Positions 3,048 to 59,600 of a stretch of DNA of 64,000 nt are shown here, one piece after another. Each line of letters opens with the position of its first letter. Position 1 is the first letter of the stretch. Origin of the DNA: Rhodanobacteraceae bacterium (GTDB lineage Bacteria > Pseudomonadota > Gammaproteobacteria > Xanthomonadales > Rhodanobacteraceae); contig JAACZU010000006.1 of NCBI GenBank assembly GCA_009996615.1, positions 124,001 to 188,000 of the forward strand. Reading direction: 5' to 3'. A program made the translations under genes and the position numbers. A model generated the notes under the pieces. It searched no databases, was not told the DNA's origin, and was given only the letters and a program-made list of their open reading frames with translations.

Positions 3048-3494
3048 ATGCTTCGCGTCAGCAAACTCACCGATTACGCCACCGTCGTCATGACCTGCCT
3101 GGTCGATGCCGGCGACGGCGTGCTGAGCGCGCAGACGCTGGCCGAGCGGGCGCGCCTGGAGGCGCCGACGGTGAGCAAGCTGCTCAAGCAGCTCGCGCAG
3201 GCCGGCCTGGTCGTGTCCACGCGCGGCATCAACGGCGGCTACCGGCTCGCGCGCGCGCCCGAGGCGATCACGGTCGCCGACATCGTGACCGCGATGGAAG
3301 GGCCGATCGGCATGACCGAGTGCATCGCGCACAGCGGCCTGTGCGACCTCGAGCCGCACTGCGGCGCGCGCGTGAACTGGCAGCGGATCAACCAGGCGAT
3401 CGCCGAGGCGCTCTCGAGCGTGACGCTGGCCGACATGGTCAACCCGCCGCCGCAGCGCAATACGGCGATCCCGCTGCGCGTCGCGGTGATCTAG
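3048..3494 (+). CDS. sufR: Rrf2-family suf operon regulator (IscR-like)
   Basis: 148 residues. An N-terminal winged helix (LTDYATVVMTCLVDAGDG, then APTVSKLLKQLAQAGLV and the wing GINGGYRLAR) is followed by three cysteines at about 92, 99 and 105 (ECIAHSGLCDLEPHCG). These match the [2Fe-2S] ligands of IscR, so it should sense Fe-S status. It is first in the suf operon, about 100 bases before sufB. The overlapping promoter/operator suggests autorepression by the holo form. The gammaproteobacterial SUF-regulator subfamily is the closest match; the symbol is by analogy. Confidence 0.9.
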   Translation: MLRVSKLTDYATVVMTCLVDAGDGVLSAQTLAERARLEAPTVSKLLKQLAQAGLVVSTRGINGGYRLARAPEAITVADIVTAMEGPIGMTECIAHSGLCDLEPHCGARVNWQRINQAIAEALSSVTLADMVNPPPQRNTAIPLRVAVI

Positions 3495-55600: not shown

Positions 55601-56664
55601 GGCGTGGTCTCCGTCGTCGCCGGCTCAGCGAGCGCGGCGAGCAGTGCATCGTTCTGCGCCGGCGTGCCGAGCGTGATGCGCAGGCAGTTCGCCAGGCCCG
55701 GCTGCGCCGAGACATCGCGCACGAGGATGCCGGCCGCGAGCAGGCCTTCGAACGCCGCGCGCACGTCGGCGAAGCGCACGAGCAGGAAATTCGCCGCCGA
55801 CGGCCATATCGTCTCGACCCTCGGCGAGTCCGCCAGCGCCGCGGCGACGCGCGCGCGTTCGGCCACCAGCGTGGCGATGCGCGCCTGCGTGCGTGCCAGC
55901 GCGGCCGGCGCGAGCGCGGCCAGCGCGGCCTCGACGCTCGGCGTCGGCAGCGGGTACGGCGCGGCGATGCGGCCGATCAGGTCGACGATCTCCGCGCGTG
56001 CGAGCAGCGCGCCGACGCGCGCGCCGGCCAGCGCGTGCGCCTTCGACAGCGTGCGCAGCACCGCGACGTTGTCGTGCGTGGCGAGCAGCGCGCTCGCGCT
56101 GGCCTCATCGGCGAACTCGACATAGGCCTCGTCGACCACCAGCAGCGCGCGCCCGGCCAGGTCGCGCGCGAGCGCGGCCAGCAGGTCGGCGCGGTACGGC
56201 GTGCCGGTCGGGTTGTTCGGCGAGCAGACGATCACGAGCTTGGTGGCGTCGTCGACCTGCGCGAGCAGGCGCTGCGGATCGAGCGCGAAGCCGTCGTCGG
56301 GCGACAGCGCGAGTGGGCGGAATTCGGCGCCCTGCAGCTGCGCGCCGATGCGGTACATGCCGAAGCTCGGCGCGAGCGCGACGACGTTGTCCTGGCCGGC
56401 ACGGCAGAACGCGCGCAGTAGCAGGTCGATCGCCTCGTCGCTGCCGCGGCCGAGCCAGAGCTGGCTGGGTTCGACGCCATACAGCGCGGCGAGCCGCTCG
56501 CGCAGGACTGCGGGTTGCGGCGCCGGGTAGCGGTTGAGGCCGTCGTCGTCCCACGGGCACTCGTTCGCATCGAGGTGGATCGGCGCGTCGAAGCCGCTGC
56601 GGCGCGCCGAGCCATACGGCGCGAACGCGACCAGTTCGGGGCGGGCACGGGCGAGCAGGCTCAT
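55597..56664 (-). CDS. hisC: Histidinol-phosphate aminotransferase
   Basis: 355 residues, PLP class [43 protein letters not shown] and the Schiff-base Lys in [19 protein letters not shown]. Overlaps hisD and hisB by four bases each. Confidence 0.96.
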
Positions 56665-58040
56665 GCGTTCACTTCCTCGGCGGCGCCCTCAGCCCTCCCC
56701 TTCAAGGGGAGGGTTGGGTGGGGATGGGTTTCATCACGCGACAGCGCCGCCAGCCGCACGTCGACCGCGCGCGCATGCGCCTCCAGCGCCTCCGCGCGCG
56801 CAAGCACGGCCGCGTCGGGACCGATCGCGCGCAGGCCGGTCGGATCGAGCTCCTGCACGTTCACGCGGCGCACGAAGCTGTCGACGCCGACGCCGCCGAA
56901 CGAGCGCGCGAAGCCGAGCGTCGGCAGCACGTGGTTCGGGCCGGCGCAGTAGTCGCCGACGGTTTCCGGCGACCACGCGCCGAGGAAGATGCTGCCGGCA
57001 TTGCCGAGCCGCGGCAGCAGCGCGCGCGGCTCGCGCGTGTTGACGATCAGGTGTTCCGGCGCGTAGCGCTCGGACACCTCGACCGCCTCGGCGAGGTCGG
57101 CGACGCGGATCAGCCGCGCGTGCGCGAGCGCGGCCTGCGCGATCTCGCGCCGCGGCAGCGCGGTGACCTGCGCCGCGACTTCGCGCACGACCGCGTCGAG
57201 CAGCGCCGCGCTCGGGCTGACCAGCAGCACCTGCGAATCGGCGCCGTGCTCGGCCTGCGCGAGCAGGTCGGCGGCGACGAACGCCGGGTCCGCGCTGTCG
57301 TCGGCGATCACCAGCACCTCGGACGGACCGGCCGGCATGTCGATCGCGGCGCCGTCGGGATCGGCCGCGACCTCGAGCTTGGCGGCGGTGACCCAGGCGT
57401 TGCCGGGGCCGAACAGCTTGTCGCAGCGCGGCACCGTGGCGGTGCCGTAGGCGAGCGCGGCGATCGCCTGCGCGCCGCCGAGCTTGAGCACGCGCGTGAT
57501 GCCGCACAGCCGCGCGGCGACCAGGATCGCCGGATCGGCGCGGCCGTCCGCGCGCGGCGGCGTCGCCAGCACGATCTCGCGGCAGCCGGCCAGGCGCGCC
57601 GGCACGCCGAGCATCCACACCGTCGACGGCAGCGGCGCGCTGCCGGCCGGCGCGTACAGGCCGACGCGGTCGATCGGGCGGATCAGCTGCTCGCAGCGCA
57701 CGCCCGGCGCGGTGTCGACGCGCAGCGCGGCCGGCACCTGCGCGGCGTGGAATGCTTCGACGCGTGCGATCGCGCGCGCCATCGCGGCGCGCACGCCGGC
57801 GTCGAGCGCGGCCTCGGCGGCGGCGAACTCGTCCGCTCCGACCTCGAACGCGGCCAGCTCGCAGCCATCGAGGCGCGCGGTCAGCTCGCGCAGCGCGGCA
57901 TCGCCGCGCGCGCGCACGTCGGCGAGGATCGCGCGCACCGCGGCGAGCTGCGCCTCGTCGCGCAGCGGCCGTGGCCGGCTCAGCGCATCGATGCGTTGGC
58001 AGTCGTCGAGCAACGACCAGTCGAGGATGTCCAGTTTCAT
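56661..58040 (-). CDS. hisD: Histidinol dehydrogenase with repeat-derived C-terminal tail
   Basis: 459 residues from ATG; a GTG at 58049 overlapping the preceding micro-ORF stop would add three. NAD- and Zn-binding core: [78 protein letters not shown] and GPNHVLPT. It oxidises histidinol to histidine. The last ~25 residues ([20 protein letters not shown]) exceed the family end and derive from the palindrome at 56693-56733, yet the hisD/hisC overlap is kept. Confidence 0.95.
56693..56733. repeat. CCCTCCCCTT-C-AAGGGGAGGG repeat inside the hisD 3' end
   Basis: Perfect 10-bp palindrome arms (56693-56713) followed by TTGGGTGGGGATGGGTTT. Read on the coding strand it gives [12 protein letters not shown] related, inverted, degenerate copy lies near 59647-59680. 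Confidence 0.8.
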
Positions 58041-58225
58041 CGTCGTCACGCCAGCCTGCGCTCCAGGTTCAGCACCAGCAGCCGGCGCGCGTCGCGCAGC
58101 GGCTGCGGCGAGTTCAATGCATTAATGCGTTGGTATGTGTCGCGAAGCGAACGGTCGGGGATGTCGCGTTTCATCGTCGTCACGCCAGCATGCGTTCCAC
58201 GTTCAGCACCATCAGCCCGTGCGCG
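57965..58225 (-). repeat. Tandem duplication of the hisG/hisD junction
   Basis: Two diverged direct copies, offset by exactly 134 bp. Copy 1 (about 58099-58225) has the true hisG end; copy 2 (about 57965-58091) has the true hisD start. Both share the block TTTCATCGTCGTCACGCCAG, then GCGTTCCA/GCGCTCCA and TTCAGCACCA. In protein terms LMVLNVERMLA is repeated as [11 protein letters not shown], and [13 protein letters not shown] as [13 protein letters not shown]. Confidence 0.85.
58046..58174 (-). CDS. 42-codon chimeric HisD-start/HisG-end micro-ORF
   Basis: Created by the 134-bp tandem duplication. Codons 1-28 resemble the HisD N-terminus ([20 protein letters not shown] vs [20 protein letters not shown]); the last 14 resemble the HisG C-terminus ([12 protein letters not shown]). 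The frame is intact, and its TGA overlaps the alternative hisD GTG exactly as the hisG TGA overlaps its own GTG at 58183. It may be a non-functional relic, a translational relay between hisG and hisD, or a real small peptide. Confidence 0.4.
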
Positions 58226-59073
58226 CCGAGGCGCTTGAGCTCTTCCAGGTGCTGCCAGTCCAGCGCGGTGGTGCACAGCGCCTGCATCGCGACGTCCTCG
58301 GGGCGGCCGTCGAGGCTGAGTACGCTCGGCACGTCGCGCGCCGGCAGCAGCTGCGTGATCGCCGGCAATGCCGAGCGCGGTGCCTGCAGCATCAGCAGAC
58401 GCACGCCGTCGCCGGACAGCGCGCCGCCGATGCGCGCGCGCAGGCGCTCGATCTGCGCGGTGGTGGCAGCGGTCTGCGCACGCGGGCTGACCGCGAGCAC
58501 CGCCTCGCTGCGCATCACGGTGACCAGCTCGTGCAGCTGGTTCGCCGCCAGCGTCGCGCCGCTCGAGACGAGGTCGCAGATCGCGTGCGCCTTGCCCAGG
58601 CGCGGCGCGATCTCGACCGAGCCGTTCAGCACGACGATCTCGGCGGTGATGCCCTGCTGGCGCAGCCAGTCGGCCAGCAACGCCGGGTACGAGGTCGCGA
58701 TGCGCAGGCCGGCCAGGTCCGACACCGCCGTGATCGCGCTGCCGTCCGGCACCGCGATCGCGAGGCGGCAGCCGCCGAAACCGAGTGCGCGCACCTCGGC
58801 CGGCGCCGGCTGTTCCGGCGCGGCCAGGCGCTGCTCGTCGAGCACGTTGCGGCCGACGATGCCGAGTTCGCAGCTGCCCTCGACGAGCAGGCCGGGGATG
58901 TCGTCGTCGCGCACCAGCAGCACGTCGACCGGCAGGTTCTCGCCGTACAGGAACAGGCGGTCGCGGCTGGCGCGGAACACCAGGCCGGCGCGGCGCAGCA
59001 GATCGAGCGAGACCTCGGAGAGGCGGCCGGATTTCTGCACGGCGATGCGCAGGCGGTCGCGGTTTTCGTTCAT
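58180..59073 (-). CDS. hisG: ATP phosphoribosyltransferase (long form)
   Basis: 297 residues. LRIAVQKSGRLSEVSLDLLR at the start, ELGIVGRNVL, and the PRPP-binding EIAPRLGKAHAICDLVSSGATLAANQL. A C-terminal regulatory ACT-like domain ends with LEELKRLGAHGLMVLNVERM. It catalyses the committed step and long forms are inhibited by histidine. Its start overlaps the upstream regulator gene by four bases. Confidence 0.95.
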   Translation of the reverse strand: MNENRDRLRIAVQKSGRLSEVSLDLLRRAGLVFRASRDRLFLYGENLPVDVLLVRDDDIPGLLVEGSCELGIVGRNVLDEQRLAAPEQPAPAEVRALGFGGCRLAIAVPDGSAITAVSDLAGLRIATSYPALLADWLRQQGITAEIVVLNGSVEIAPRLGKAHAICDLVSSGATLAANQLHELVTVMRSEAVLAVSPRAQTAATTAQIERLRARIGGALSGDGVRLLMLQAPRSALPAITQLLPARDVPSVLSLDGRPEDVAMQALCTTALDWQHLEELKRLGAHGLMVLNVERMLA

Positions 59074-59411
59074 GGCGTACTCCGCGCGGTCTTGGCCGCC
59101 GCGCGCGGCTTCTTCAGGCGGGCGGCCGCCAGCGCATAGCCGCCGGCGCCCTGTTCGAGGCTGCGGGCGACGCGCCCGATCGTGGTGATGCTGACCGCGG
59201 TGGCGGCGTGGATCTGCCAGTACGGCAGGCCTTCGAGCAGGTGCGGCACCACGCTCCAGCGGTCGCGCATCGATTCGCGCTCGGCCGGCGTGCACAGGTC
59301 GTCGAGGAACGCGCGTACCTCCTCGACGCTGCGCAGCGTCAGCAGCGCCTCGCACAGCGAGCGCTCGGCGCGTTCGGAGTCGACCTTCGGTTCGATCTGG
59401 CGGCGTTTCAT
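59070..59411 (-). CDS. hisR: TrpR-family (YerC-like) repressor of the his operon
   Basis: 113 residues. The TrpR-superfamily helix-turn-helix is CTPAERESMRDRWSVVPHLL followed by GLPYWQIHAATAVSITTIGR, then a basic tail. First gene of the his operon, overlapping hisG by ATGA. A trp-operator-like palindrome lies ten bases before its start, over the predicted transcription start. I recall HisR regulons of this type predicted for Xanthomonadales; histidine as co-repressor is the natural inference but unproven here. Confidence 0.85.
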   Translation of the reverse strand: MKRRQIEPKVDSERAERSLCEALLTLRSVEEVRAFLDDLCTPAERESMRDRWSVVPHLLEGLPYWQIHAATAVSITTIGRVARSLEQGAGGYALAAARLKKPRAAAKTARSTP

Positions 59412-59420
59412 CGCGGTAAT

Positions 59421-59438
59421 GTATTAGCGCGTTAATAC
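59421..59438. promoter_or_regulatory. Predicted HisR operator
   Basis: GTATTAGCGCGTTAATAC: half-sites GTATTA and TAATAC around six bases. It shares 12 of 18 positions with the E. coli trp operator core GTACTAGTTAACTAGTAC. Lies just downstream of the predicted +1 and ten bases before hisR. Confidence 0.7.
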
Positions 59439-59449
59439 GTTGGGCGCGC

Positions 59450-59478
59450 AGCATAGGGGTGTTGTTGCGTCGCGTCAA
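59450..59478 (-). promoter_or_regulatory. Predicted his operon promoter
   Basis: On the minus strand TTGACG (59478-59473), 17-bp spacer, TATGCT (59455-59450). The expected start near 59443 puts the operator over the first transcribed bases. Confidence 0.7.
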
Positions 59479-59600
59479 GCGGGTGGGGCGAGGTATCGGG
59501 GTCCGGTGCCGGCACGAGCGAGTCGCGCGGTACCGGCCTCGCGGACGCGGTCCGGCGTTCGCCCGCAGCCGGCGTGGCGGTGGGACGGACGACGGATTTT

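Follow-up and report, generated by a model that had tools for sequence, protein, structure and literature searches.

A diverged tandem duplication at a hisG-hisD junction carries a candidate second HisR operator within a relay micro-ORF

The his operon and its duplicated hisG-hisD junction

We analyzed a 64,000-nucleotide stretch of contig JAACZU010000006.1 from a Rhodanobacteraceae bacterium (assembly GCA_009996615.1), hereafter the window, in which a his operon is encoded on the minus strand in the order promoter, yerC/hisR, hisG, micro-ORF, hisD, and hisC (Table 1). Stop and start codons overlap by 4 nt at the yerC-hisG, hisG-micro-ORF, micro-ORF-hisD, and hisD-hisC junctions. The genome is Dokdonella-related, with best named hisG matches that are 75-84% identical and come mostly from Dokdonella or Rhodanobacteraceae records. 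The window's YerC falls within the YerC/YecD TrpR-related family, and the TrpR equivalog TIGR01321 scores 21.4 bits, below its cut-off of 67.25. Separately, the C-terminal ~24 residues of hisD (56661-56735, minus strand) match several places in the same genome (residues 412-458, at 52-71% in some rows), and most relatives' hisD alignments stop near residue 438; this C-terminal extension is perhaps a captured dispersed repeat.

Table 1. Features of the his operon and its duplicated junction, in window positions.
Feature	Position	Strand	Basis or remark
yerC-his operon promoter, TTGACG-17-TATGCT	59450..59478	-	no second promoter-like site in 57900-59560; mean of 0.0 in shuffles
O1, HisR-type operator, downstream of the promoter and ahead of the yerC start	59419..59440	-	40.6 bits, matrix of 29 relatives' sites
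yerC/hisR, TrpR-family regulator	59070..59411	-	TIGR02531 62 bits (cut-off 42.2); PF01371 78.2 (cut-off 27)
hisG	58180..59073	-	TIGR00070 171.1 bits; start codon on the stop of yerC, stop codon on the start of the micro-ORF
Duplication copy A (134 bp), with the true hisG tail and a hisD-like head	58090..58223	-	repeat search
Duplication copy B (134 bp), with a hisG-like tail and the true hisD head	57956..58089	-	repeat search
Chimeric relay micro-ORF of 45 codons, none for His, with a GTGA overlap at each end	58046..58183	-	
O2, candidate second HisR operator within the micro-ORF	58117..58138	-	25.8 bits; zero-mismatch pattern match
hisD-copy register matching O2, operator lost	57983..58004	-	-12.3 bits
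hisD	56661..58049	-	TIGR00069 512.3 bits; start codon on the micro-ORF stop, stop region shared with the hisC start

The initial annotation placed a 134-bp tandem duplication at 57965-58225. Two diverged copies offset by 134 bp are indeed present at the hisG/hisD junction, identical at 107 of 134 positions (80%), gap-free and in register; the bounds given for them were up to 9 bp off. At an offset of 134, the number of shared bases per 20-nt window is 12-18 inside the unit and 1-9 outside it, the windows at 120 and 140 being ones that straddle or follow the end of the unit.

For comparison, 150 hisG-hisD junctions were gathered, namely that of the window and those of 149 further loci in its genus, family, and order (150 of 151 loci were classified, L127 being left out for want of a hisG match). 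A hisG match was present in 208 genomes of the family, part of which were sampled for junctions, and the survey excludes two genomes without hisG (G003 and G009) and one with a weak hisG (G008). When the junctions were scanned for tandem copies (offsets 40-299, 60-nt windows), the window ranked first with 88% over 60 nt at offset 134, the runner-up reached 65%, and no tandem duplication was found in the other 149 junctions. The similarity between the copies is far above chance and is seen only in the window. Because the copies are 20% apart, they are not an assembly stutter, as judged from the one assembly of the species. Both copies share a GTG start with ACGACGATGAAAC, which occurs in none of the relatives' junctions among those listed, so that the copies arose in this lineage. 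The initial reading, which invoked selection, counted absence from close relatives against itself; all relatives surveyed lack the duplication, which is a lineage-specific event.

Across the genomes surveyed, hisG identity does not follow taxonomic rank (G007, G014, G019, G061, G072, and G081), being 58-59% in two genomes of the same genus, 78% in another genus, and 69-72% in another family, which suggests exchange of his operons or taxonomy trouble. One 99%-complete genome of the same genus (G009) yields no hisG or hisD match and is possibly a histidine auxotroph, or else carries very divergent genes.

The micro-ORF and relays at other hisG-hisD junctions

The chimeric ORF between hisG and hisD consists of 94 nt of hisD head followed by 44 nt of hisG tail. 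The 42 codons first reported for it are those counted from an ATG, and starting from the GTG three codons earlier gives 45. Overlaps of 4 nt join its GTG to the hisG TGA and its own TGA to the hisD GTG, so that its stop does overlap the hisD start as the hisG stop overlaps its own start, with GTGA at both ends. The small frame has stayed open, as was originally pointed out, but this is uninformative on selection, since in unselected simulations the frame of a hisD-head/hisG-tail chimera survives 10-27 random substitutions in 59-88% of cases.

A functional peptide, also raised in the initial annotation, is unsupported. The micro-ORF has an open frame with a start and a stop, but a functional 45-residue product is very improbable given that profile searches returned no protein family match for it, that it has no homologue in the other junctions surveyed, and that five of the six changes in its hisG-derived tail alter the residue. 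Residues conserved in hisD are lost from it, and differences between the copies show no excess at third codon positions, although in the hisD-derived part this flat pattern is not diagnostic, as relatives' true hisD heads are nearly as flat. That a short ORF within a his operon might be a histidine leader peptide or attenuator is contradicted by its composition, with 0 His codons in 45, and by the lack of any terminator-like site in 57900-59560; we regard this explanation as barely credible, the run of His codons before a terminator that defines a His attenuator leader being absent here.

Support for translational coupling, which the initial annotation had argued from the open frame, comes instead from comparison of the junctions. 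The 150 junctions comprise 100 in which hisD starts directly on the hisG stop with a 4-nt overlap, 22 single relays, 4 double relays, 1 one-base overlap, and 23 gaps. A start codon lies over the hisG stop in 29 of the 50 non-direct junctions, and 26 of these 29 reach hisD unbroken through one or two micro-ORFs. The remaining 21 of the 50 have no start on the hisG stop; such coupling is thus not indispensable and can be lost. Under a rough null (shuffled insert, random length, ATGA fixed at the hisD start), 2.7 complete relays are expected and 9 are seen among 12 clusters (P 1.5e-4), the clusters including the window and being crude, with some related loci split or merged. The micro-ORF in the window itself starts on the upstream stop and ends on the downstream start, as a coupled relay ORF would. 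An intergenic distance of ~20 nt almost abolishes coupling according to PMC10666635, so that inserting 134 bp would come at a cost unless a relay were present.

These comparisons suggest that relay micro-ORFs arise repeatedly between hisG and hisD. Relays of 3-11 codons occur in several genera (L096, L101, L116, L118, L176, L193, and others), some of them resembling short repeats of the junction. One locus (L043) has an insert of ~200 nt with a two-ORF relay of 44 and 29 codons, and in another (L171) hisG and hisD are ~180 nt apart with no relay between them. We also considered a gain of Shine-Dalgarno sequence through the duplicated hisG tail, and found nothing special: the duplex energy is -5.6 before hisD versus -3.3 before the micro-ORF, and four of the five relatives' hisD starts listed (L004, L008, L011, and L014, the L004 stretch being offset) are already comparable at -5.6 to -6.4.

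An operator-like site in the micro-ORF and its counterparts

Within the micro-ORF, the 22 bases of O2 have a GC content of 36%, whereas the remainder of the micro-ORF has 69% and the window as a whole 69.9%. In relatives, a conserved palindrome directly precedes the yerC start codon; its position and its kinship to the proteobacterial motif presented in PMC9413887 identify it as the HisR operator. From 29 such sites, with the window left out, we built a symmetrised matrix. In the window it finds O1 and O2, while the next independent place scores at most 2.2 bits and the remaining top places mostly overlap O1, O2, or the yerC start. The O2 score is among the low values of the training sites (22.8-44.7 bits) and comparable to those of L004 and L008, whose true O1 sites are weak (22.8 and 25.4 bits). 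Against a matrix of 18 sites from outside the genus O2 scores 24.3 bits, under the 32.8-44.6 range of those sites, and so is weaker than a typical O1.

By chance, the O2 score has an iid probability per position of 6e-10 at 70% GC, and it was reached by 0 of 400,000 composition shuffles. A 20-base pattern matches the 3.9-Mb genome with fewer than three mismatches at only two places, O1 and O2, both with none; O1 read on the other strand has two, and one further place has three. This pattern was written after both sites had been seen, which leaves the matrix as the independent test. Across 197 partly redundant loci (498,480 bases), the matrix gave 120 matches of at least 8 bits, all accounted for: 99 are O1 sites, 7 are 8-nt-shifted or adjacent to O1, 13 are redundant copies of O2, and 1 lies upstream of yerC in L127, a 32.5-bit site 174 nt from the yerC match. 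At one yerC promoter (L091, from G007), two operator-like matches overlap 8 nt apart, at inferred positions 1642-1670, perhaps as a double O1.

O2 conforms to the ~20-bp palindrome of the lineage motif. O1 lies immediately upstream of hisR, as described operators do, and O2 is 1302 bp away from it, so we treat O2 as a candidate second site and not as a member of the described promoter class. As a sequence match, O2 is strongly supported as an internal HisR operator candidate. It was absent from the initial annotation, and we think that this operator-like site is the main reason to care about copy A. DNA looping between O1 and O2 was considered and set aside, the spacing being long and not constant (1302 bp in the window, 1290 bp in L006 and L007, and 1325 bp in L008).

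Three relatives have a matching site in the codons of the hisD head, namely two D. fugitiva genomes (L006, 19.3 bits; L007, 14.9 bits) and a MAG (L008, 13.5 bits), and in each it is the second-best place of the whole locus. In the other 146 of the 150 junctions no position-matched operator site was found, with scores of at most 1.0 bits; a faint match (-2.4 bits) is present in L004 at this offset. At these sites hisD third codon positions are richer in A/T than in the rest of the stretch: 4 of 7 versus 39 of 422 (9.2%) in L006 (p 0.002), 4 of 7 versus 19 of 422 (4.5%) in L007 (p 0.00013), and 5 of 8 versus 94 of 421 (22.3%) in L008 (p 0.017). At O2, 22 consecutive nt are identical between L006 and copy A, which is unremarkable in itself because longer runs, up to 69 nt, occur elsewhere between the two operons. 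The MAG is labelled Polyangiaceae, yet its yerC-hisG-hisD stretch is Dokdonella-like (HisG 81.7%), and it is probably mislabelled or mixed.

The two copies differ in what they have kept. Inside O2, copy A resembles L006 (82% identity) more than it does copy B (64%), whereas outside O2 it is closer to copy B (78%) than to L006 (60%); in the hisD copy the operator is absent from the O2 register. With L006 used to polarize the differences, those in O2 favor copy A over copy B 6 to 1 and those outside favor copy B 7 to 1 (p 0.010 by Fisher's test); when both D. fugitiva genomes are used, the counts are 5:1 for copy A in O2 and 6:1 for copy B outside (p 0.029). With the majority of eight relatives, they are 2 for copy A and 5 for copy B in O2, and 1 and 9 outside (p 0.54). 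This last polarization fails to support an ancestral O2 and runs against the simple reading, although it is the outcome expected if most relatives never had O2. In the trees the O2 carriers are not grouped together, and gain of O2 in copy A and in D. fugitiva is a possible alternative to an ancestral site. We advance only tentatively, as somewhat short of probable, a history in which a stretch serving both as coding sequence and as operator was split by the 134-bp duplication, the coupled micro-ORF keeping the operator and hisD keeping the protein. If true, complementary degeneration would here have taken place at base level within a bacterial operon, and coupling would be preserved by a translated bridge.

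A putative second point of HisR repression

The overall explanation that we favor, and consider somewhat probable, is that an ancestral hisD operator was split by the duplication and that O2, now in a translated bridge, forms a second HisR repression point. The ancestor would have carried a secondary HisR (YerC) operator in the first hisD codons, with the main operator ~1.3 kb upstream at the yerC promoter, and tandem duplication of the junction would have produced two copies of this dual-use stretch. The upstream copy would have become the chimeric micro-ORF, retaining O2 and losing the residues conserved in hisD, and the downstream copy would have retained hisD coding and lost the operator. 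The micro-ORF would then serve as a translated bridge in a GTGA chain from hisG through the micro-ORF to hisD, with terminating ribosomes re-initiating on hisD. We infer that HisR on O2 would repress hisD and the later genes, most likely as a roadblock to elongating RNA polymerase and possibly also by covering a weak internal promoter.

The roadblock is our first choice because the scan for promoter-like sites gave none near O2 in the window, and the position of O2, downstream of the promoter on the same strand, fits one, given the transcription predicted. A LacI study (PMC4132739) describes roadblock strength as set by affinity, promoter firing, and spacing, and a weak site such as O2 would give modest repression. 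Several observations stand against this best explanation: O2 is the weaker of the two sites and is 1.3 kb away from O1, 146 of the 150 junctions have no O2, and an open frame is expected without selection.

The main alternative for the action of O2, because a promoter-like site overlaps it in L006, is that it represses an internal promoter for hisD and the downstream genes without any roadblock to elongation. That site (TCGACA-16-TATCCT, 3428-3455) overlaps O2 exactly, and was the one found where shuffles had a mean of 0.0; but the same scan, an insensitive one that also missed any yerC promoter in L006, finds none near O2 in the window or in L008, and we judge this alternative improbable. O2 might also be incidental, with the duplication kept only because hisD needs a terminating ribosome. 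The 26 of 29 relays, the steep cost of a ~20 nt distance reported in PMC10666635, and the recurrence of 3-11-codon relays without O2 all speak for this, yet it leaves O2 and its hisD counterparts unexplained, and undoing the duplication would preserve coupling equally well; we find it unlikely, though worth keeping in view.

A neutral duplication of the junction, with the micro-ORF and its frame as relics and O2 as leftover ancestral codons without a present regulatory role, would agree with the frame staying open by chance, with the flat codon-position differences, and with the occurrence of the duplication in one genome only. A drifting relic should score lower than O2 does, however: the remainder of copy A has drifted, while O2 scores like the weak but true O1 sites found in L004 and L008 and above the D. 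fugitiva hisD sites. This account strikes us as rather unlikely.

If O2 works as we propose, some Dokdonella his operons would have a second, internal histidine checkpoint that sets hisG, whose product is the feedback-inhibited first enzyme, apart from hisD and the remaining genes, and the junction would illustrate the relief of a conflict between coding and regulation through a small duplication. Reportedly, He and Zalkin in 1992 placed the PurR site of purB downstream of the transcription start, within the transcribed unit. O2 likewise lies downstream of the predicted start and within the transcribed unit, but the regulator here is HisR, the site is deep in the operon and would have moved from hisD coding sequence into a duplicate, and the blocking is putative. 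The PurR-purB case is cited in PMC10310618 for an intragenic or downstream operator acting as a transcription roadblock.

The HisR (YerC) regulon of Proteobacteria, as presented in PMC9413887, has its palindromic operator immediately upstream of hisR, where O1 of the window also lies, whereas the second candidate here is inside the hisD/micro-ORF region, 1.3 kb into the operon. That study describes training on non-coding upstream regions and a motif search covering -350 to +50 relative to starts. Since the regions upstream of operons are where operators are usually sought, sites in coding sequence are easily missed. We found no report of an internal HisR operator in the open-access literature searched.

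In keeping its short ORF coupled downstream, the insert resembles the mycobacterial MIRUs described in PMC12548453, which keep a short ORF coupled to the downstream gene via a -4 overlap, but MIRUs are mobile repeats, whereas this insert is a tandem duplication of a gene junction and bears an operator-like site. The ATGA/GTGA 4-nt overlaps are also like those of the termination-reinitiation gene pairs of PMC10666635, unlike which the his operon of the window places an extra micro-ORF between hisG and hisD.
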